Below, in pieces: positions 5,887 to 14,067 of a DNA stretch of 49,621 nucleotides. This stretch comes from Chloroflexota bacterium (GTDB lineage Bacteria > Chloroflexota > Anaerolineae > UBA4142 > SHND01): contig JAKOPZ010000161.1 of assembly GCA_029778615.1 (NCBI GenBank), forward strand, positions 1-49,621, read 5' to 3'. Positions within the stretch are counted from its first letter, which is position 1. The number at the start of each line of letters is the position of its first letter. Under the pieces are notes generated by a model. That model worked only from the letters and a program-made list of their open reading frames with translations. It had not been told where the DNA came from and searched no databases. The translations under genes and the position numbers were made by a program.

Positions 5887-7209
5887 ATGGCAAACACAGT
5901 ACAAACGCCGGGCGTGAGCAACGCAAGCCCACCCCGCGGCGATTCGCAAACCGTGCTGGCGGCGACGGCGGTATTGGAAGGCAAAAGCCAAAAAGGATTT
6001 TTCGCGCGGCTGCTCCCGTTTTTGGGACCCGCGTTCATCGCGTGCGTCGCGTATGTGGACCCCGGCAATTTTGCAACCAACATTTCGGCGGGCGCCCAGT
6101 ACGGGTATTTGTTGATTTGGGTCATTGTCGCGAGCAATCTGATGGCAATGTTGATTCAAGCCCTGTCCGCGAAACTCGGCATCGCCACCGGAAAAAATCT
6201 TGCGGAAGTGTGCCGTGACCAATTCCCACGTCCCGTCGTGTGGGCAATGTGGGGCGTGATGGAAGTGATGGCGATGGCGACCGACCTTGCAGAATTTCTC
6301 GGTGCCGCGCTCGGATTCAATTTACTCTTTGGCATCCCGCTCTTTGAAGCGGGTCTGCTCACCGCGCTCGCAACCTTTCTCATTCTCTCGCTCGAAAAGC
6401 GCGGCTTTCGTCCGCTCGAAGCGGTGATTACGGGATTCGTCGGCGTGATTGCGCTGTGTTATGTGATTGAAACAATTTTGGACCGTCCCGATTGGGGCTT
6501 GATTGGGTACCACATTGTGCTGCCGCAATTTCAAGGCACAGAAACGATTTTGTTGGCGACGGGCATTCTCGGTGCGACGGTGATGCCGCATGTGATTTTT
6601 TTGCATTCCGCCTTGACGCAAGGACGCATCGTCACGCGCGAACCCGCGCAATTGAAAAAACTCTTTCGGTTTGAATTGATTGACGTACTGGTCGCCATGG
6701 GACTGGCGGGTTTTGTGAACGCGGCGATGTTGATTATGGCGGCGTCCACGTTTCACGTGAGCGGCTTGACGAACGTGGGTTCGATTGAAGAGGCGTACAA
6801 AACGCTCGAACCCTTGCTCGGCGTCGCGGCGAGCGCGGTATTTGCGATTTCGCTGCTCGCTTCGGGTCTGTCCTCTTCGACAGTCGGGACGATGGCGGGG
6901 CAAGTCATCATGCAGGGATTTTTGCATCGCAAAATTTCCGTGTGGCTGCGACGGCTCGTCACCATTTTGCCTTCGCTCATTGTGATTTATCTCGGACTCG
7001 ACCCCACGCGCACGCTCGTCATTTCGCAAGTCGTTTTGAGTTTCGCGTTACCGTTCGCCGTTGTGCCGCTGGTGATGTTCACACGCCGCCGCGATTTGAT
7101 GGGCGTATTGGTCAATCACCGCTTCACCACCATCGCCGCCGTTGGTGCCGCGACACTTATTATCGGACTCAATATCTATTTGTTGTACCAAACCATTCTT
7201 GGAAGCTAG
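5887..7209 (+). CDS. mntH: NRAMP-family Mn2+/Fe2+ transporter
   Basis: A 440-residue polytopic membrane protein that imports divalent metal with protons. The metal-site motif DPGN is at residues 58-61 (first helix) and ATVMPH at 230-235 (sixth helix). The Met at 233 is the residue that favours Mn/Fe/Cd over Ca/Mg in NRAMP proteins. The following HSALTQGR is the family transport signature. A 40-residue Ser/Thr-rich cytoplasmic N-terminal tail is longer than in Escherichia coli MntH. It begins 15 bases after the regulator gene, with GGTGTCGGT as a weak ribosome site, so it is in the regulator's operon and presumably repressed when metal is plentiful. It opens the metal island. The transcript runs into heptad repeats at 7206. 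Confidence 0.92.
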   Translation: MANTVQTPGVSNASPPRGDSQTVLAATAVLEGKSQKGFFARLLPFLGPAFIACVAYVDPGNFATNISAGAQYGYLLIWVIVASNLMAMLIQALSAKLGIATGKNLAEVCRDQFPRPVVWAMWGVMEVMAMATDLAEFLGAALGFNLLFGIPLFEAGLLTALATFLILSLEKRGFRPLEAVITGFVGVIALCYVIETILDRPDWGLIGYHIVLPQFQGTETILLATGILGATVMPHVIFLHSALTQGRIVTREPAQLKKLFRFELIDVLVAMGLAGFVNAAMLIMAASTFHVSGLTNVGSIEEAYKTLEPLLGVAASAVFAISLLASGLSSSTVGTMAGQVIMQGFLHRKISVWLRRLVTILPSLIVIYLGLDPTRTLVISQVVLSFALPFAVVPLVMFTRRRDLMGVLVNHRFTTIAAVGAATLIIGLNIYLLYQTILGS

Positions 7210-7235
7210 AGACTAGAGATTAGAGATTGGAGACT
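7206..7235 (+). repeat. 7-bp tandem repeat array (TAGAGAT/TGGAGAC units)
   Basis: Four consecutive 7-mers, TAGAGAC TAGAGAT TAGAGAT TGGAGAC, begin at the stop codon of the NRAMP gene. An array in the opposite orientation lies at 7373-7403 just before the next gene, so the two can pair as the stem of a hairpin. Confidence 0.85.
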
Positions 7236-7372
7236 CATCACTCTGTTATTTCGTCTCACCATAAATGCTTAACACCGGCAATAGAATTTTGCGAAAAACG
7301 AGTCTATTTCGCAAGAATCGCGCTATGAAACTGCAAAGCAACTTTGGTGAGATGGAATAGGAATGACCCGTA
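7236..7372. other. Spacer between inverted heptad arrays
   Basis: This 137-base spacer separates the two inverted heptad arrays between the NRAMP and stress-protein genes. It holds no convincing ORF and no clear promoter. Confidence 0.5.
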
Positions 7373-7403
7373 CCCAATCTCTAATCTCCAATCTCCAATC
7401 TCC
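7373..7403 (-). repeat. 7-bp tandem repeat array, inverted partner of 7206-7235
   Basis: Read on the - strand it is GGAGATT GGAGATT GGAGATT AGAGATT. It ends three bases before the ATG of the universal stress protein gene and leaves no room for an ordinary Shine-Dalgarno sequence. Confidence 0.85.
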
Positions 7404-7406
7404 ACC

Positions 7407-8324
7407 ATGTTCCAACATCTCCTCGTTCCTCTTGACGGTTCGCGTCTCGCCGAAAGCATTTTGCCTGTCGTCCAAACGTTCGCCCGCGCGTTGGATGCCA
7501 CCGTCACCTTGTTGCACGTAGTCGAACCTGCACCGCCCGCGAGCATTCACGGCGAGCCGCATCTTGCAAATGCGGAAGAGGCGCGCGCGTATCTCGAAAA
7601 CCTCGCGGCAGTCCTGCGTACGGAAAATATCAACGCCGACATTCATATAGATGTTGCCGAAGGTGGGGATGTGGTGAGAGCCATTTTCGCGCACGGCGGC
7701 GAACTGCACGCGGACTTGATTGTCCTCACAAATCATGGACGCAGCGGTTTGAAACAAGCATTGTTTGGTTCCATCGCGCAGCAAGTTTTACAAAGCGGCG
7801 AAATTCCTGTGCTGCTCGTCAAAGCGGAACAAGCCGTACCGCCCGCGCCATACGCGTGTCAAAATATTCTTGTGCCGCTTGACAGCAGCGCGCTGTACGA
7901 AAAAGCGCTGGACGTGGCAGTCGCATTGGCGCGTGCGGTGGGCGCGACCCTGCACATCGCGCTCGTCGTACCTACAATGCGTACACTCTCGCCCGAACGC
8001 GCCGCGACGGGCACGTTGTTGCCTTCCAGTACGCGCGCCGTTTTGGATTTGGCAGAAAACGGCGCGGCGGAATATCTGGAACAAAAACGCGCGCAATGGC
8101 AAGGCAGCGGCGTAGAAATTCAGACCCAAGTTTTGCGCGGAGACATTCCCACCCAAATCGTCGCGGCGGAACAGCAGAACGCCGCCGACTTGATTGTGAT
8201 GGCAACTCACGGACGCGCCGGACTCGACGCGTTTTGGTCAGGCAGCATCGCCCCCAAAGTCTTGAACCGCGCGCACGCGCCGCTTTTGCTGCTGCGCGTG
8301 AGGGGAGAAGAACCAGTACGTTAA
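7407..8324 (+). CDS. Tandem universal stress protein (two Usp domains)
   Basis: A 305-residue cytoplasmic protein made of two UspA-type domains (about 1-142 and 150-300). Each starts with the strand motif [NQ][HI]LVPLD[GS]S and ends with an ATP-binding-type loop: NHGRSGLKQALFGS in the first and THGRAGLDAFWSGS in the second. Each loop is followed by a VLLVK / LLLLR strand. Proteins of this class bind nucleotides and modulate stress or transport functions; a specific partner is not known. The ATG at 7407 is preferred because MFQHLLVPLDGS is the canonical start. The frame is open further upstream to 7344, but that extension only translates the heptad repeats. The position between an NRAMP gene and a multicopper oxidase gene fits metal or oxidative stress. 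Confidence 0.85.
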   Translation: MFQHLLVPLDGSRLAESILPVVQTFARALDATVTLLHVVEPAPPASIHGEPHLANAEEARAYLENLAAVLRTENINADIHIDVAEGGDVVRAIFAHGGELHADLIVLTNHGRSGLKQALFGSIAQQVLQSGEIPVLLVKAEQAVPPAPYACQNILVPLDSSALYEKALDVAVALARAVGATLHIALVVPTMRTLSPERAATGTLLPSSTRAVLDLAENGAAEYLEQKRAQWQGSGVEIQTQVLRGDIPTQIVAAEQQNAADLIVMATHGRAGLDAFWSGSIAPKVLNRAHAPLLLLRVRGEEPVR

Positions 8325-8334
8325 AAGCCATAGT

Positions 8335-8388
8335 AACGATTTCAATCGTTCCACCGACTCGGACGAACGAAGCGATGGAGTGCATCGC
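8335..8388. repeat. Double small hairpin in intergenic space
   Basis: AACGAT-TTCA-ATCGTT (8335-8350) and GCGATG-GAGTG-CATCGC (8372-8388) are two short stem-loops between the stress-protein stop and the multicopper oxidase start. There is no T-run, so a repeat remnant or processing site is more likely than a terminator. Confidence 0.45.
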
Positions 8389-8409
8389 ACGTCACTACGA
8401 TTTACTCTT

Positions 8410-9489
8410 ATGAACGACAAAATCACACGACGAAAATTTTTCCAAGTAGGCGGCGCAACCGCCTTGAGCATCGCAGGCACAGCCGCATTGATTGACGCCT
8501 GCGCGCCCGGTACGGAACGCTCGCCGCAGCGTTCCCTCCCCGAACCGCAGCGTTCCGCGCCCGCGCCAACGCCAACACACGCGCAGCACACCGCGAACGG
8601 CGATGCAATGTTCATGCCCGGATTCGTGGGCGAAGTGAATCACGCGGCGAATGGTTTCAATCCAACGGACATTCTCACCGATTTCGATTACGGCACCGTG
8701 AGCACACTGCCGAATGGCCAAACGCTGCGCGAATATCGCATCAACGCGGTGACAAAAATGGTCGAGGTCGCGCCGGGCATTCAGTACGAAGCGTGGACGT
8801 ATAACGGACGCGTGCCGGGTCCCACCATTCGCTGCACCGAAGGCGACCGCATCCGCATCGAATTTGTGAATGGCACCGCGCATCCACACACAATGCACTT
8901 TCACGGCGTCCATCACGCGAACATGGACGGTGTGTACGAGCCCGTTCCCGTTGGCGGAACATTTGTGTACGAATTCGACGCCGAACCATTTGGCGTGCAT
9001 CAATATCACTGCCACGTGTTTCCGCTCGCGGAACACATCGCGCGCGGGTTGTATGGCGCGTTCATCGTGGACCCGAAAGAAGGTTGGGAAAAGGCGGAAC
9101 ATGAATTTGTGATGGTGCAAAACGGGGTGGACATTGATTTCGACGGCGCGAATGATTTTTACGCGGTGAACTTTATTCCGTTTCATTACGACAAACATCC
9201 GATTGTGATAAAGCAAGATGCGCTCGTGCGAATCTTTCTCATTAATATGCTCGAGTACGACCAAATCAATTCGTTTCACATTCACGCGAATTTTTTCCAT
9301 TACTATCCGACAGGCACGAGCCGCACGCCGAGCGAATACACCGATACGATTATGCAAGCGCAAGCACAGCGCGGGATTGTGGAATTCAAATACAAGTTCC
9401 CCGGCAAATACATGTTCCACGCGCACAAAACGGAATTTGCAGAGCTCGGCTGGACGGGCGTGTTTCAGGTGGAGGACCGTACAACATGA
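8410..9489 (+). CDS. Tat-exported two-domain multicopper oxidase
   Basis: A 359-residue oxidase that couples one-electron oxidation of a substrate (phenols or metal ions such as Fe2+, Mn2+, Cu+) to reduction of O2 to water. The twin-arginine signal TRRKFFQVGG (6-15) is followed by ALIDAC, which could be lipidated at Cys31, then a Pro/Ser-rich linker. Two cupredoxin domains follow. Four His-x-His pairs (163/165, 200/202, 290/292, 337/339) provide the trinuclear site. Cys201 with a His near 160 and His209 gives the type 1 copper, and its axial position is Leu214, suggesting high potential. The HxH set distinguishes it from copper nitrite reductase. The linker region contains a REP-like palindrome at DNA level. 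Start at 8410 is set by the Tat motif. The stop overlaps the next start (ATGA), so translation is coupled to the ZIP transporter. Confidence 0.9.
   Translation: MNDKITRRKFFQVGGATALSIAGTAALIDACAPGTERSPQRSLPEPQRSAPAPTPTHAQHTANGDAMFMPGFVGEVNHAANGFNPTDILTDFDYGTVSTLPNGQTLREYRINAVTKMVEVAPGIQYEAWTYNGRVPGPTIRCTEGDRIRIEFVNGTAHPHTMHFHGVHHANMDGVYEPVPVGGTFVYEFDAEPFGVHQYHCHVFPLAEHIARGLYGAFIVDPKEGWEKAEHEFVMVQNGVDIDFDGANDFYAVNFIPFHYDKHPIVIKQDALVRIFLINMLEYDQINSFHIHANFFHYYPTGTSRTPSEYTDTIMQAQAQRGIVEFKYKFPGKYMFHAHKTEFAELGWTGVFQVEDRTT
8514..8557. repeat. REP-like palindrome inside the oxidase coding region, family C
   Basis: GGAACGCT-CGCCGC-AGCGTTCC (8514-8535) is a perfect hairpin. A partial copy (GAACCGCAGCGTTCCG) follows at 8542-8557. 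The same unit is repeated four times at 13965-14036. Here it is translated as part of the ERSPQRSLPEPQRS linker. Confidence 0.85.
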
Positions 9490-10691
9490 CCATTCCAAAT
9501 GTCACGGCGAACGAAAACCCGCGCGCGACCGATACGCTAAAAACAATCGGACTGTTGCTCATTCCGATTCTTTTGCTTGCGGGCGTCATCGCGCTGTTTG
9601 TGTTCACGAGCGGCGCGGGCTTGAATGTGGAACCTGCCGCGCCGATTGAAAGCGTACAGTTCGAGCGTACCGTGTTAAAGCCGAGCGTGATTGAATTGCA
9701 AATCCAAAACACATCGCCGCAAGACATCACGCTCGCGCAAATCAACATCAACGACAGCATCGTTCCGTACAGCGTGACGCCGAGCGCGACGATACCGCGT
9801 CTCGGCAGCGCGACGATTACGATTCCGTACCCGTGGGTGCAGGCGAATCCGTACACGATTTCAATTTTTTCGTCGAACGCGATTCCGTTTGAAACGACGA
9901 TTGGCGCGGCAGCCGAAACGCGCGGCGTGGACGCGAATACGCTTTTGAGTTTCACACTCATCGGTTTGTACGTCGGCGTCATTCCAATTTTTCTCGGCAT
10001 CTTTTGGTTCCCCGCGCTGCGGCGTTTGGGCGCGCGCGCCTTCGCGTTTTTGATGGCGCTCACAGTTGGCTTGCTTTTGTATTTGGGGATTGACGCGACG
10101 AGTGAAGCATTGGAAATCGCAGGCGCATTGGGCGGACCGTTTCAGGGCGTTGGACTCGTCGGCTTTGGAATTCTCGGCGCGTTCCTTTTGCTGGAAGCCG
10201 TTTCCGCGCGGCAAAATCATTTAGGACGCAGTGAGGCGCAGCAGCGCATGGGCGTGGCGTTCATGATTGCGATTGGCATCGGCTTGCACAATTTGGGCGA
10301 AGGACTTGCGATTGGCGCGTCGTACAGCGTAGGCGCCGCCGCGCTCGGCGCGTTTCTCGTCATCGGTTTCATCATTCAAAACATCACCGAAGGTCTCGGC
10401 ATCATCGCGCCGATTGTCAAGGACAAACCGCAGTGGCTGAATTTTGCGCTGCTCGGACTCATCGGCGGCGCGCCCGCGATTGTCGGCGCGTGGATTGGCG
10501 GCTTGAGTTATTCCGCAGTTCTCGCCACCTTGTTTCTCGCCATCGGCGCGGGCGCGGTGCTCCAAGTCGCGTATCAAATTTCAAAAATGATTTTGCGCGA
10601 CAACACGAAACGTCCGATGCCATTCACGTTGCTCGCGGGCGTTTTGGCGGGAATGGCAGTACTGTATTTCACCGGAGTCATCATCAAATAA
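9486..10691 (+). CDS. ZIP-family metal permease with an N-terminal extracytoplasmic domain
   Basis: A 401-residue membrane protein. One N-terminal helix (about 22-40) precedes a beta-rich domain outside the membrane (about 45-145). Seven to eight helices follow with the ZIP signatures HNLGEG (helix 4) and QNITEG (helix 5). In typical ZIPs helix 5 reads HxxPEG; here the His and Pro are replaced by Gln and Thr, so one ligand of the binuclear metal centre is changed. ZIPs bring Zn2+, Fe2+ or Mn2+ into the cytoplasm. The ATG lies within the stop of the multicopper oxidase (ATGA), implying translational coupling and joint function, for example oxidising a metal outside the cell and importing it. 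I recall two-domain oxidases beside ZIP permeases in ammonia-oxidising archaea; this pair would be a bacterial parallel. Confidence 0.88.
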   Translation: MTIPNVTANENPRATDTLKTIGLLLIPILLLAGVIALFVFTSGAGLNVEPAAPIESVQFERTVLKPSVIELQIQNTSPQDITLAQININDSIVPYSVTPSATIPRLGSATITIPYPWVQANPYTISIFSSNAIPFETTIGAAAETRGVDANTLLSFTLIGLYVGVIPIFLGIFWFPALRRLGARAFAFLMALTVGLLLYLGIDATSEALEIAGALGGPFQGVGLVGFGILGAFLLLEAVSARQNHLGRSEAQQRMGVAFMIAIGIGLHNLGEGLAIGASYSVGAAALGAFLVIGFIIQNITEGLGIIAPIVKDKPQWLNFALLGLIGGAPAIVGAWIGGLSYSAVLATLFLAIGAGAVLQVAYQISKMILRDNTKRPMPFTLLAGVLAGMAVLYFTGVIIK

Positions 10692-10703
10692 AGAGGCAAA
10701 CCT

Positions 10704-10839
10704 AATGTGCAACACTTTTGTCATTTCGAGCGGAGCGAGAAATCTCGCAAGGCGCGAATGAGATTTCTCGCAAAACTTGTCCCGAAGCATTGAGGGAACG
10801 GCTCGAAATGACATTTGTCCCGCGAAAGAGTTGCACATT
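10704..10839. repeat. 136-bp imperfect palindrome, family A
   Basis: The outer arms AATGTGCAAC (10704-10713) and GTTGCACATT (10830-10839) are exact complements. The inner blocks TGTCATTTCGAG, GAGATTTCTCGC and CCGAAGCATTGAGG match the element at 1561-1703, while the outer arms differ. That points to a shared core with separately evolved or target-derived ends. Confidence 0.85.
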
Positions 10840-10851
10840 GAGTAGGCAAAC

Positions 10852-11445
10852 ATGGACGATACAATTTTTCGGATTTTGATTTTGGTTTTAATGGTCACGG
10901 CGTTGAGCATCTCGGCGTACTTTCGCCGTAAAGCACAACGCGAAGGGAGTGACAAAATTGACCGCACGCAAGAAGGCGTGCCGTTGATGCTCGTGCTGCG
11001 GGTCGCGGGCTTGGGACTTTGGTTGAGCGTACTCGTGTACGTTATCAATCCCGCGTGGATTCAATTCGCCGCGCTGCCGATTCCGGACGCGCTGCGTTGG
11101 TTCGGGTTCGCACTCTCGCTCATTGCCCTGCCGTTGATTGTGTGGATGTTTCGTTCGCTCGGCAGCAACATCACCGACACGGTGCAAACGCGGCAGAACG
11201 CGCAGCTCGTCGTGCGCGGTCCGTACAAACACATTCGGCATCCGCTGTATTCGTTTGGCATGTTGTTTTTCATCGGGCTGATGTTGATGGCGGCGAACGC
11301 GTTGATTATTTTCTTTGGCGCGGTGGCGCTGACGATGCTGCTTGTGCGTACTCCAACGGAAGAAAAAATGCTCGTCGAAAAATTTGGGGACGCGTATCGC
11401 GCATACATGACTCGGACGGCGCGCTTTATTCCGGGTGTCTTGTAA
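10852..11445 (+). CDS. Isoprenylcysteine carboxyl methyltransferase (ICMT)-like membrane protein
   Basis: A 197-residue integral membrane protein with about five helices. The C-terminal half has the ICMT/PEMT-type signature: GPYKHIRHPLY at 123-133, then EEKML (about 170) and FGDAYRAYMTRTARFIP near the end. In this superfamily these segments bind S-adenosylmethionine at the membrane face. Bacterial members do not have a proven common substrate; small thiols, lipids or metal-related targets have been suggested for different ones. It lies between the ZIP and CDF genes of the metal island and is joined directly to the next gene (its stop at 11445 precedes the next ATG at 11446), so it is probably translated with the CDF-like protein. 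The preceding element is a palindromic repeat ending 12 bases before the ATG. Confidence 0.78.
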   Translation: MDDTIFRILILVLMVTALSISAYFRRKAQREGSDKIDRTQEGVPLMLVLRVAGLGLWLSVLVYVINPAWIQFAALPIPDALRWFGFALSLIALPLIVWMFRSLGSNITDTVQTRQNAQLVVRGPYKHIRHPLYSFGMLFFIGLMLMAANALIIFFGAVALTMLLVRTPTEEKMLVEKFGDAYRAYMTRTARFIPGVL

Positions 11446-12069
11446 ATGAATCTCACCGCGCGCACACGTGACATCCAAACCGCACTCGGTTTGGAAATCT
11501 TTAACGTCAGTTATAACATTGGCGAAGGAATTCTCGCGCTCGCGTTCGGAATCGCCGCTGCCAGTCTTTCCCTCGAAGCGTTCGGTCTCGACAGCATCAT
11601 CGAGGTCACCGCAGGCGTGATTTTGATTTGGCGGTTAAATGTCGAACGACGCGGCGGTGATGACGAACAAGTAGAATTGGTGGAACACCGCGCGGAAAAA
11701 TTCGTCGGCATCACGCTCCTCGCGCTCGCGGCGTACATTGTCTTTCAAGCCGCGTACACATTGTTCACCCGGCAAGCGCCCGATGCAAGCGTCGCGGGAA
11801 TCATTCTCGCGTTCGCATCGCTAATCATCATGCCGCTCATCGCGCGCTGGAAATTGCGCCTCGCCGAACGCCTCGAGAGCCGCGCGTTGCGCGCCGACGC
11901 GTTCGAAACCATCGCGTGCGCGTATCTTTCGTTCACACTGCTGCTCGGGCTCGCCGCGAATTATTTTTTCGGCTGGTGGTGGGCAGACCCGCTCGCCGCG
12001 CTCGTGATGGTGTACTTTATTGTGCGCGAAGCGCGGGAAGCGTTGGGCGGACAAGAAAATGGAGAGTAG
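11446..12069 (+). CDS. Cation diffusion facilitator-like protein with altered metal site
   Basis: A 207-residue protein containing only the six-helix membrane part of the CDF family; the usual cytoplasmic C-terminal domain is absent. In Zn2+ exporters such as YiiP, the transport site is Asp-x3-Asp in helix 2 and His-x3-Asp in helix 5. Here helix 2 reads Asp49-S-I-I-Glu53, and helix 5, aligned through the shared R-A-D motif, reads Glu154-T-I-A-Cys158. So the His is replaced by Glu and the Asp by Cys. DPLAALV (181-187) keeps the family pattern. The changed ligands imply a different metal, a different role, or loss of transport. It is directly joined to the ICMT-like gene upstream. Family membership is clear; the activity is not. 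Confidence 0.8.
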   Translation: MNLTARTRDIQTALGLEIFNVSYNIGEGILALAFGIAAASLSLEAFGLDSIIEVTAGVILIWRLNVERRGGDDEQVELVEHRAEKFVGITLLALAAYIVFQAAYTLFTRQAPDASVAGIILAFASLIIMPLIARWKLRLAERLESRALRADAFETIACAYLSFTLLLGLAANYFFGWWWADPLAALVMVYFIVREAREALGGQENGE

Positions 12070-12102
12070 AGACGGGAGATTGGAGACTGGAGATTGGAGA
12101 TT
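12061..12102 (+). repeat. 7-bp tandem repeat array (GGAGATT/GGAGACT units)
   Basis: Six consecutive 7-mers (GGAGAGT AGAGACG GGAGATT GGAGACT GGAGATT GGAGATT). The first two overlap the last codons and stop of the CDF-like gene. An inverted array lies at 12205-12227 before the next gene. Confidence 0.85.
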
Positions 12103-12204
12103 CTGGGATAGTAGTCAGGACGCGTAGGATAGTGCCTTGTGCGCGCTTGTGTCGAATCTGACGCCCACAAGGGGCTATACTACCCCAACTGATGTAGGAA
12201 TTTG

Positions 12205-12227
12205 CTCTAGTCTCCAGTCTCTAGTCT
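12205..12227 (-). repeat. 7-bp tandem repeat array, inverted partner of 12061-12102
   Basis: On the - strand it reads AGACTAG AGACTGG AGACTAG AG. It stands seven bases before the start of the CDF exporter gene. The 102 bases between the two arrays hold no ORF or clear promoter. Confidence 0.8.
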
Positions 12228-12233
12228 TTCTGT

Positions 12234-13178
12234 ATGTCCTTGCACACGCATTCGCATTCGCACAGCGCGAACGTGAACGCCCGGCGCATGTTACTCGCGT
12301 TGGGCATCACGCTCGCGTTCGTGATTTTTGAAATCGCGGCGGGGCTTGTTGCCAATTCGCTCGCGCTGCTGACCGACGCCGCGCATAACGTGACGGATGT
12401 CATTGCGCTCGCGTTGAGTTGGTATGCGCTGCGGGTTGCCGCGCGTCCCGCGAACGAAAATAAAACATTCGGCTATCACCGCGTCGGGATTGTCGTCGCG
12501 CTCATTAACGGATTGTCGCTCGTTTTGATTTCGCTGTTTATTTTTTACGAAGCGGCGCAGCGGCTTTTGAATCCGCTCGTCGTCGAGGATTCGATTTTGA
12601 TTGGTGTCGCGGCGATTGCGTTTTTTGTGAACGCGGGAACAGCGCTTTTGGTTTTGCGCGGCAGTGAAAAGGACTTGAATCAACGCAGCGCGTTTTTGCA
12701 TCTCGCGGGCGATGCGCTCGCCACGCTCGGCGCGTTTGTCGCGGGCATCGGTATCGCGCTCACAGGGTGGAATTGGCTCGACCCGCTCGCGAGTATTTTG
12801 ATTGCGGTTTTGATTTTGTGGAATGTGGTGGGCATCGTGCGCGAGGCGCTCGACATTTTATTGGAAGCAACGCCGCGTGATGTGGACGTGCCCGCGTTGG
12901 TGCGCGCAATCAAAAATGTGCGCGGCGTGCGCGGCGTTCACGATTTGCATGTGTGGTCACTGGCGCAAAATCTCCGCGCGCTGTCCGCGCACGTTCTGAC
13001 CGACGATGTTACAATTAGCGAGGGCGCGCAAGTGCAGCGTGAGGTGAACGAACTTTTGCACGAACAGTACGGTATCGCGCACGCGACCTTGCAACTGGAG
13101 TGCGTGGGCTGCGAACCGGACGCGCTGTATTGTGAATTGGACGGGCACTCGCACGGAGGCAATCATGAACACGCGTGA
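12234..13178 (+). CDS. czcD: Cation diffusion facilitator (Zn2+/Cd2+/Co2+ exporter, CzcD/ZitB type)
   Basis: A 314-residue CDF exporter that moves divalent metal out of the cytoplasm in exchange for protons. Metal ligands are in canonical form: His51-N-V-T-Asp55 in helix 2 and His156-L-A-G-Asp160 in helix 5. The N terminus (HTHSHSHS) and C terminus (HSHGGNHEHA) are His-rich and probably hold metal. The cytoplasmic domain (about 215-300) has the HDLHVWSLAQN motif of the family. The ATG at 12234 is used because the His-rich start is typical; heptad repeats occupy the upstream leader. Its last 14 bases overlap the start of the Rieske-like gene. Together with the NRAMP and ZIP importers in the same island, it suggests two-way control of one or more metals. 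Confidence 0.9.
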   Translation: MSLHTHSHSHSANVNARRMLLALGITLAFVIFEIAAGLVANSLALLTDAAHNVTDVIALALSWYALRVAARPANENKTFGYHRVGIVVALINGLSLVLISLFIFYEAAQRLLNPLVVEDSILIGVAAIAFFVNAGTALLVLRGSEKDLNQRSAFLHLAGDALATLGAFVAGIGIALTGWNWLDPLASILIAVLILWNVVGIVREALDILLEATPRDVDVPALVRAIKNVRGVRGVHDLHVWSLAQNLRALSAHVLTDDVTISEGAQVQREVNELLHEQYGIAHATLQLECVGCEPDALYCELDGHSHGGNHEHA

Positions 13179-13683
13179 AAAATTATTTTTGCTGTGGGCA
13201 GTTTTGGCAAGTGTGCTTTTTCTCGGCGCCGCATTCGTCGTTGGACAAATGCTTTTGCCTCGCTTTGCGGACACGGCACAGCTGATGTATGCCGCTGAAA
13301 TGGAACCGGGAGCAACGGTACTTTACCAATGCAGTCGGGCGGCGAAACAATGCGCGCCCACCAATCAAGCCGCGCACTATGTGGAATTTGCGAATGCGGC
13401 GGGTAACGGCGCAATCGAAGACTATACCCTCCTTTGGGTTACGCACGATACGCCTACCGAGTGGCGCGCGTTTTCGCCGGTCAGCACGCATCTTGGCTGT
13501 TTCGTGATGTGGCAGCCAACGGTGGAGCAATTTCGAGACCCATGCGGCGGCGCGGCATGGGCGCGCGATGGCAAATATGAATTTGGTCCTGCCCCGCGCG
13601 ATTTAGATTCCTTTCCCGTACGCGTCCAGAATGGCGCTGTGTTCATCGAATTCAAATTGGTGCGCGGAAAAAATATCAATTAA
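13165..13683 (+). CDS. Membrane-anchored Rieske-fold protein lacking most [2Fe-2S] ligands
   Basis: A 172-residue protein with one N-terminal helix (8-32) and an extracytoplasmic domain. The region 105-165 follows the Rieske pattern closely: T-H-L-G-C with F-V-M-W after it, P-C-G-G, G-P-A-P-R and F-P-V-R-V-Q-N-G. Canonical Rieske proteins have CTHLGC and CPCHG. Here they are Ser107-T-His109-L-G-Cys112 and Asp125-P-Cys127-Gly128. Three of the four cluster ligands (Cys, Cys, His) are therefore Ser, Asp and Gly, while both disulfide cysteines (112 and 127) remain. The fold is likely kept without a cluster. The start at 13165 is set by GGAGG five bases upstream, and it overlaps the CDF exporter gene by 14 bases. 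The role is unknown; a structural or metal-binding partner in the metal island is possible. Confidence 0.8.
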   Translation: MNTREKLFLLWAVLASVLFLGAAFVVGQMLLPRFADTAQLMYAAEMEPGATVLYQCSRAAKQCAPTNQAAHYVEFANAAGNGAIEDYTLLWVTHDTPTEWRAFSPVSTHLGCFVMWQPTVEQFRDPCGGAAWARDGKYEFGPAPRDLDSFPVRVQNGAVFIEFKLVRGKNIN

Positions 13684-13704: not shown

Positions 13705-13959
13705 ATGGACGAATGTACGCATCTCGACCAAATTAAAAATGTAAAACCGAAAACGCGCGGCTGTGAAGAATGTTTGCAGATGGGCGATACGTGGGTGCAT
13801 TTACGAATGTGTTTGACGTGCGGACACGTCGGCTGCTGCGACCAATCGAAAAACAAACACGCGACAAAACATTTTCACGCGACGGGGCATCCCATCATTG
13901 AATCGCTCGAACCCGGAGAGGATTGGAGATGGTGTTATGTGGATGAGGATGTTGTGTAG
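13705..13959 (+). CDS. UBP-type zinc finger protein
   Basis: An 84-residue protein that is almost entirely a ZnF-UBP domain. Cysteines and histidines Cys4, His6, Cys20, Cys23, Cys36, Cys39, Cys44, His52, His56 and His62 follow the family spacing. The core line MCLTCGHVGCCDQSKNKHATKHFHATGHP is easily recognised when read against the family. In eukaryotes the fold binds the C-terminal tail of ubiquitin; stand-alone bacterial versions have no settled function and no ubiquitin system is visible here. It may act as a small zinc protein in the metal island, being the last gene of the + strand run. CCCGGAGTTAAAGC upstream of the ATG contains a GGAG ribosome site. Confidence 0.88.
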   Translation: MDECTHLDQIKNVKPKTRGCEECLQMGDTWVHLRMCLTCGHVGCCDQSKNKHATKHFHATGHPIIESLEPGEDWRWCYVDEDVV

Positions 13960-14067
13960 GGAACGCTCGCCGCAGCGTTCCCGCTCGCCGCAGCGTTCCC
14001 GCTCGCCGCAGCGTTCCCGCTCGCCGCAGCGTTCCCTCCGTGCGCGGAACGAAACGGCGTTCGTTCC
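13959..14067. repeat. Four tandem REP-like palindromes plus a related hairpin, family C
   Basis: The 18-bp unit GCTCGCCGCAGCGTTCCC occurs four times end to end at 13965-14036, so that each GGAACGCT arm can pair with an AGCGTTCC arm. A different hairpin (GGAACGA-AACGGCGT-TCGTTCC, 14046-14067) follows. The block starts at the stop of the zinc finger gene and lies between convergent genes, where it may also end transcription. Confidence 0.9.

Follow-up and report, generated by a model that had tools for sequence, protein, structure and literature searches.

A Rieske-type protein lineage of one Chloroflexota genus that lacks cluster ligands and the twin-arginine motif and keeps its disulfide cysteines

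Is a Rieske-type protein that has lost most of the residues holding its [2Fe-2S] cluster a decaying copy or a fold put to another use, and what might it then do? The question is raised by a gene in a stretch of 49,621 nucleotides (here called the window) of contig JAKOPZ010000161.1 from the Chloroflexota assembly GCA_029778615.1. The features of the locus are listed in Table 1.

Table 1. Features of the clusterless Rieske locus, in window coordinates.
Feature	Position	Strand	Basis
CDF cation exporter with Cation_efflux and ZT_dimer domains; shares 14 nt with the Rieske gene; neighbourhood only	12234..13178	+	Pfam
GGAGG ribosome-binding site, 5 nt before the ATG, within the CDF gene	13155..13159	+	Sequence
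Clusterless Rieske-fold protein, 172 aa: N-terminal membrane helix and Rieske domain	13165..13683	+	Translation, homology, AlphaFold, fold matches
Predicted membrane helix, residues 3-30	13171..13254	+	AlphaFold model
Extra Cys56/Cys63 pair, predicted to lie on a strand-turn-strand and lacking in the sister family	13330..13353	+	Alignment, model
STHLGC, residues 107-112: ligand Cys replaced by Ser107; ligand His109 and disulfide Cys112 retained	13483..13500	+	Translation, alignment
DPCGG, residues 125-129: ligand Cys replaced by Asp125, ligand His by Gly128; disulfide Cys127 retained	13537..13551	+	Translation, alignment
GPAPR, residues 141-145: Pro-loop motif of bc/b6f-type Rieske proteins, intact	13585..13599	+	Translation, alignment
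FPVRVQNG, residues 150-157: C-terminal strand motif, intact	13612..13635	+	Translation, alignment
Small zf-UBP zinc-finger protein, 21 nt downstream of the Rieske gene; neighbourhood only	13705..13959	+	Pfam

The gene has an unbroken frame from its ATG (13165) to a TAA (13683), and its product contains the segments ...SPVSTHLGCFVMW...RDPCGGAAWARDGKYEFGPAPRDLDSFPVRVQNG... The first-pass annotation of the window had read CTHLGC as changed to STHLGC and CPCHG as changed to DPCGG, with three of the four ligands gone; translation and alignment bear this out, and of the C-x-H / C-x-x-H ligands only His109 is left. The codons at the ligand positions are AGC (Ser107), CAT (His109), GAC (Asp125) and GGC (Gly128), and those of the disulfide cysteines are TGT (Cys112) and TGC (Cys127). 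Asp125 and Gly128 are each two base changes away from any Cys or His codon, more than a single base error can account for, and sequencing error was ruled out as the origin because two of the three replacements require such double changes. The same annotation was also right that GPAPR, FPVRVQNG and both disulfide cysteines are kept, and that the gene overlaps the exporter gene and starts behind a strong GGAGG. An Rfam search of the window gave no match.

By profile and sequence searches, the homology of the protein to Rieske proteins is well beyond chance: it matches the PetC model NF045928 (cytochrome b6-f Rieske) with an E-value of 3.5e-13, and its best sequence match in the PDB is the Rieske protein 8hn2 (E 6.6e-11). 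The Pfam Rieske model gives 12.8 bits, below its cut-off of 20.3, as is expected when ligands have been lost. Built from the protein and 24 relatives, an AlphaFold model reaches a mean pLDDT of 84.3, with more than 90 in the Rieske core; because canonical Rieske proteins are part of the alignment behind it, the model is not evidence separate from the homology. In Foldseek and VIA-align comparisons Rieske proteins rank first, the best match being 9rk4 (Z 12.4, rmsd 2.6 over 101 residues), and PetC3 (5cxm) reaches Z 11.6. Structure prediction thus agrees with the Rieske fold that had been proposed from the sequence, and the predicted model of a sister protein (described below) is a Rieske fold as well. 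On the model, Cys56 and Cys63 could make a second disulfide, which the sister family lacks.

The nearest relatives of the window protein are a family of 180-aa proteins present in five of the six sampled species of the genus. One of them is a second clusterless copy, and hence a paralogue, in the window's own genome (G000, contig C250); G001 has two copies, one of them cut, G004 and G005 also carry the gene, and G003 has a 42-aa fragment at a contig edge. The gene was not found in G002, the genome of which is only 79% complete. The two very similar G001 copies lie at contig ends (L034, L035) and may be a tandem duplicate or strain variants. Full-length sister proteins start with MENYS and are about 66-68% identical to the G000 copy. 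All copies long enough for the motifs to be read (G000, G001, G004, G005) have none of the four ligands, the positions being occupied by Ser, by Asn or Arg, by Glu, and by Gly or Ala, and both disulfide cysteines, which are invariant across all relatives compared. The sister family has an eight-residue insert in the first cluster loop; the window copy has a short loop. The possibility that close homologues all carry four ligands, raised in the first-pass annotation as grounds for dismissing the gene, was thus checked, and the closest homologues turned out to have lost all four. With ligandless copies in several species, a lone misassembly or the decay of a normal Rieske gene was ruled out for the family.

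A family profile that includes the window copy scored members at 216-338 bits (the window copy at 216, the 42-aa fragment at 69); across 396 genomes of the class, non-members reached at most 58 bits and nothing comparable was found. An alignment scan of contigs from about 85,000 species detected the family in only five contigs of four genomes, all of this genus, and the same kind of scan with the window protein alone as query gave no match. A plasmid search returned ten weak matches (<60% identity), whose annotations name Rieske or cytochrome b6-f iron-sulfur proteins. A Rieske variant with the motifs DPHLGC ... NPCHG was queried in the window's phylum and in that of genome G661 and was discarded, as the hits with motifs read had canonical ligands. 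The sister family has no Pfam match, and similar apo-Rieske proteins may therefore be overlooked elsewhere.

A branch with an SH-aLRT support of 98 sets the six ligandless proteins apart in a tree of 129 Rieske domains; when the ligand columns and the insert were masked, the group was still recovered, with support falling to 78/48. The window copy and the sister proteins accordingly group, by alignment and tree, as a genus-restricted clusterless family, in which the ligands were probably lost once. With its short loop and different neighbours, the window copy represents a separate branch of this family, and a long one (0.72-0.88 replacements per site). Its short loop and its one retained ligand His may place it nearer to the ancestral state.

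Codon comparisons show purifying selection on the sister family. The two G001 copies differ by 4 nonsynonymous and 16 synonymous changes (dN/dS about 0.07), and other pairs between species have dN of 0.24-0.31 and dS from 1.2 to saturated; with dN far below dS, the sister family is maintained by selection although it has no cluster ligands. The window copy itself is a different case, since no orthologue was found in the genomes examined and it is known from one species only. It could be a duplicate within the clusterless family that is decaying or was inactivated not long ago and that serves no function itself, a reading that we consider unlikely. Its restriction to one species (the CDF orthologues of sister species lack it), its long branch, a weaker codon signature and a GC3 lower than that of most neighbours would all fit decay. 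On the other side, the frame is unbroken, the GGAGG and the overlap with the upstream gene are present, its own frame carries the strongest coding signal among the six, and the residues that define the fold are kept (GPAPR, the L-D-F residues, the first-loop Trp and both disulfide cysteines). An unbroken frame after so many replacements is also unlikely under drift: simulated neutral change over the window branch, with indels ignored, left the frame free of stops in only 1-2% of runs. The earlier claim of a functional, repurposed fold therefore stands as far as the retained fold and the ligandless relatives with low dN/dS are concerned; for the window copy itself function does not follow directly, and selection on it is what we infer.

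The loss of ligands is paralleled at the N-terminus. A twin-arginine (Tat) motif, defined leniently as RRxx-hydrophobic upstream of the domain (in some open frames this upstream part may be untranslated), was found in 183 of 184 ligand-bearing Rieske homologues, with RRxF-hydrophobic in 152, in a set of distinct homologues that was gathered by similarity to the window protein, includes three-helix actinobacterial Rieske proteins and is not an unbiased census. The sole ligand-bearing exception is a protein cut at its N-terminus. By contrast, none of the six ligandless proteins has the motif, and five of these have complete N-termini; in the window copy, MNTREKLFLLW precedes the helix. As the six are probably one clade, the contrast counts as one event and not six. 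The loss of the ligands and that of the Tat motif thus appear to be coupled, in keeping with a domain that has no cluster, is exported unfolded and has its disulfide closed outside. In Shewanella, export of the Rieske protein via Tat has been demonstrated experimentally and needs both arginines (PMC3623810), and in a Streptomyces Rieske protein Tat is required for the last helix (PMC5449189). The window's genome encodes TatC. With no cluster to load in the cytoplasm, a clusterless protein would have lost its Tat motif and would be inserted by the Sec route, to be oxidized outside. The same genome encodes VKOR, a disulfide-forming enzyme.

The genes on either side offer no conserved partner. 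The upstream gene, named a Zn exporter in the first-pass annotation, is a cation exporter by its Pfam domains, with zinc as one possible metal. Its orthologues in three sister species (77-86% identity) have no adjoining Rieske gene, nor do orthologues of the zf-UBP gene elsewhere, and a functional link of the window protein to either gene was set aside as unsupported. The G003 orthologue of the CDF gene (L160, 86% identity) was reported with one in-frame TAA. Just past the zf-UBP gene, at 13964-14036, lies a perfect 18-bp tandem repeat of 4.1 copies (CGCTCGCCGCAGCGTTCC), and positions 5887-13178 hold a metal-related run of NRAMP, universal stress protein, multicopper oxidase, ZIP-like permease, methyltransferase and two CDF exporter genes.

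This setting gives some colour to the idea that a single metal ion, such as Zn or Cu, is bound in the window copy where the cluster once sat, by His109, Asp125 and residues close to them, and that the protein handles metal beside the CDF exporter. His109 is retained in this copy alone, an Asp stands at a former ligand position, and the gene overlaps a CDF gene in a stretch that also has NRAMP, ZIP-like, multicopper oxidase and a further CDF gene. However, the gene order is not conserved, and Asn or Arg takes the place of this His in the sister family, so that metal binding is not a family trait; we regard this idea as improbable.

The sister genes have a more stable setting. In G000, G001, G003, G004 and G005 they adjoin a DUF4872 gene, an AI-2E-type permease gene and a GAF-HD-GYP gene, none of which neighbours the window copy. 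Its occurrence beside sister genes in five species makes the DUF4872 gene the first candidate partner of the sister protein. The DUF4872 neighbours (L039:8167-8847, L037:6289-6909, L038:5005-5622) have kept no more than a short stub of the BtrH N-terminal domain, and the DUF4872 protein is possibly another one with a lost catalytic part. The window's genome also has canonical Rieske genes, one adjoining cytochrome b and c genes and one close to genes for cytochrome b and multihaem cytochromes, as read from the sequence of their neighbours, whereas the window gene is not beside cytochrome b. The electron-carrying job is thus filled by others.

The best explanation, held with somewhat better than even confidence, is that the window protein is a paralogue of the bc/b6f-type Rieske subunit that holds no [2Fe-2S] cluster, is exported by Sec, is tied together by its disulfide and serves as a non-redox scaffold or docking domain. 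One N-terminal helix would anchor the protein with its Rieske domain outside the cytoplasm, and a disulfide between Cys112 and Cys127 would tie the two former cluster loops together. Holding no cluster, the protein would be unable to carry electrons, and a scaffolding or docking role on the outer membrane face is the most economical and most likely reading. Two facts count against it: the window copy has no conserved partner gene, and it keeps a ligand His that a pure scaffold does not need.

Two further readings keep a chemical role for the former cluster loops. The retained cysteine pair might be redox-active, in a module for thiol-disulfide exchange or sensing, as could be argued from the invariance of both cysteines in all relatives compared and from the second pair, Cys56/Cys63, of the window copy; yet disulfides at these positions are structural in bc/b6f Rieske proteins, and the protein has neither a CxxC motif nor a thioredoxin-like fold, which leaves the idea with little probability. 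Less probable still is that the window protein binds a [2Fe-2S] cluster with an unusual set of ligands, in which Ser107, His109 and Asp125 are joined by one further residue. Iron can be coordinated by Ser and Asp, and a Rieske subgroup of the Anaerolineae has Ser in place of one cysteine ligand, but Gly128 contributes no side chain, Asn/Arg and Gly/Ala occupy the two His positions in the sister family, and the Tat motif is gone.

For the family as a whole, we tentatively propose, at somewhat less than even confidence, that a bc-type Rieske lineage lost its cluster, Tat export and redox role together, and that selection has kept the disulfide-locked, Sec-exported scaffold for a non-redox task in one genus. 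The clade is a natural test of why Rieske proteins take the Tat route, since ligands and twin-arginine motif should be missing jointly if nothing but the cluster makes folded export necessary, and it suggests that a two-loop, disulfide-tied Rieske domain can persist without metal.

Ligand substitution of another kind was seen in ten distinct Rieske proteins of the same class (L017, L024, L182, L185, L187, L188, L189, L190, L200, L214), which read CTHLGC ... SPCHDG or SPCHEG: the second cysteine ligand is Ser, whereas the disulfide cysteines and the remaining three ligands are kept. These proteins are spread over several families and resemble a conserved variant with Ser replacing a Cys ligand.

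Among known systems, the closest is the bc/b6f-type Rieske subunit (PetC/QcrA/PetA; PF00355, NF045928), with which the window protein shares the N-terminal helix, the Rieske fold, the two disulfide cysteines and the GPAPR loop. It differs in having one of four ligands (none in the sister family), no Tat motif, no adjoining cytochrome b gene, and a Pfam score below the cut-off (or no match, for the sister family). The small subunit of arsenite oxidase, AioB, is matched in fold (Z 11.5); unlike the window protein, AioB binds a cluster and pairs with AioA, and the identity is only 13-18% in the aligned core. NirD, the small subunit of nitrite reductase and partner of NirB, is alike in being a Rieske-type protein that in some members is without cluster ligands, with substitutions persisting in several species, whereas the window protein is of the membrane-anchored, disulfide-bearing bc type. 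The NirD model was not among the Pfam and NCBIfam matches of the window protein up to E 1, and no NirB-like gene was found among the window neighbours scanned. In the NirD of Bacillus bataviensis two ligand residues are substituted, a trait common to related species (PMC3475470). The literature searched described no clusterless disulfide-bearing Rieske family, which is weak evidence of absence as subscription papers fell mostly outside the search. Rieske-type proteins with substituted ligands are thus already known, and what is new to the literature searched is a membrane-anchored, disulfide-bearing bc-type lineage without ligands and Tat motif.
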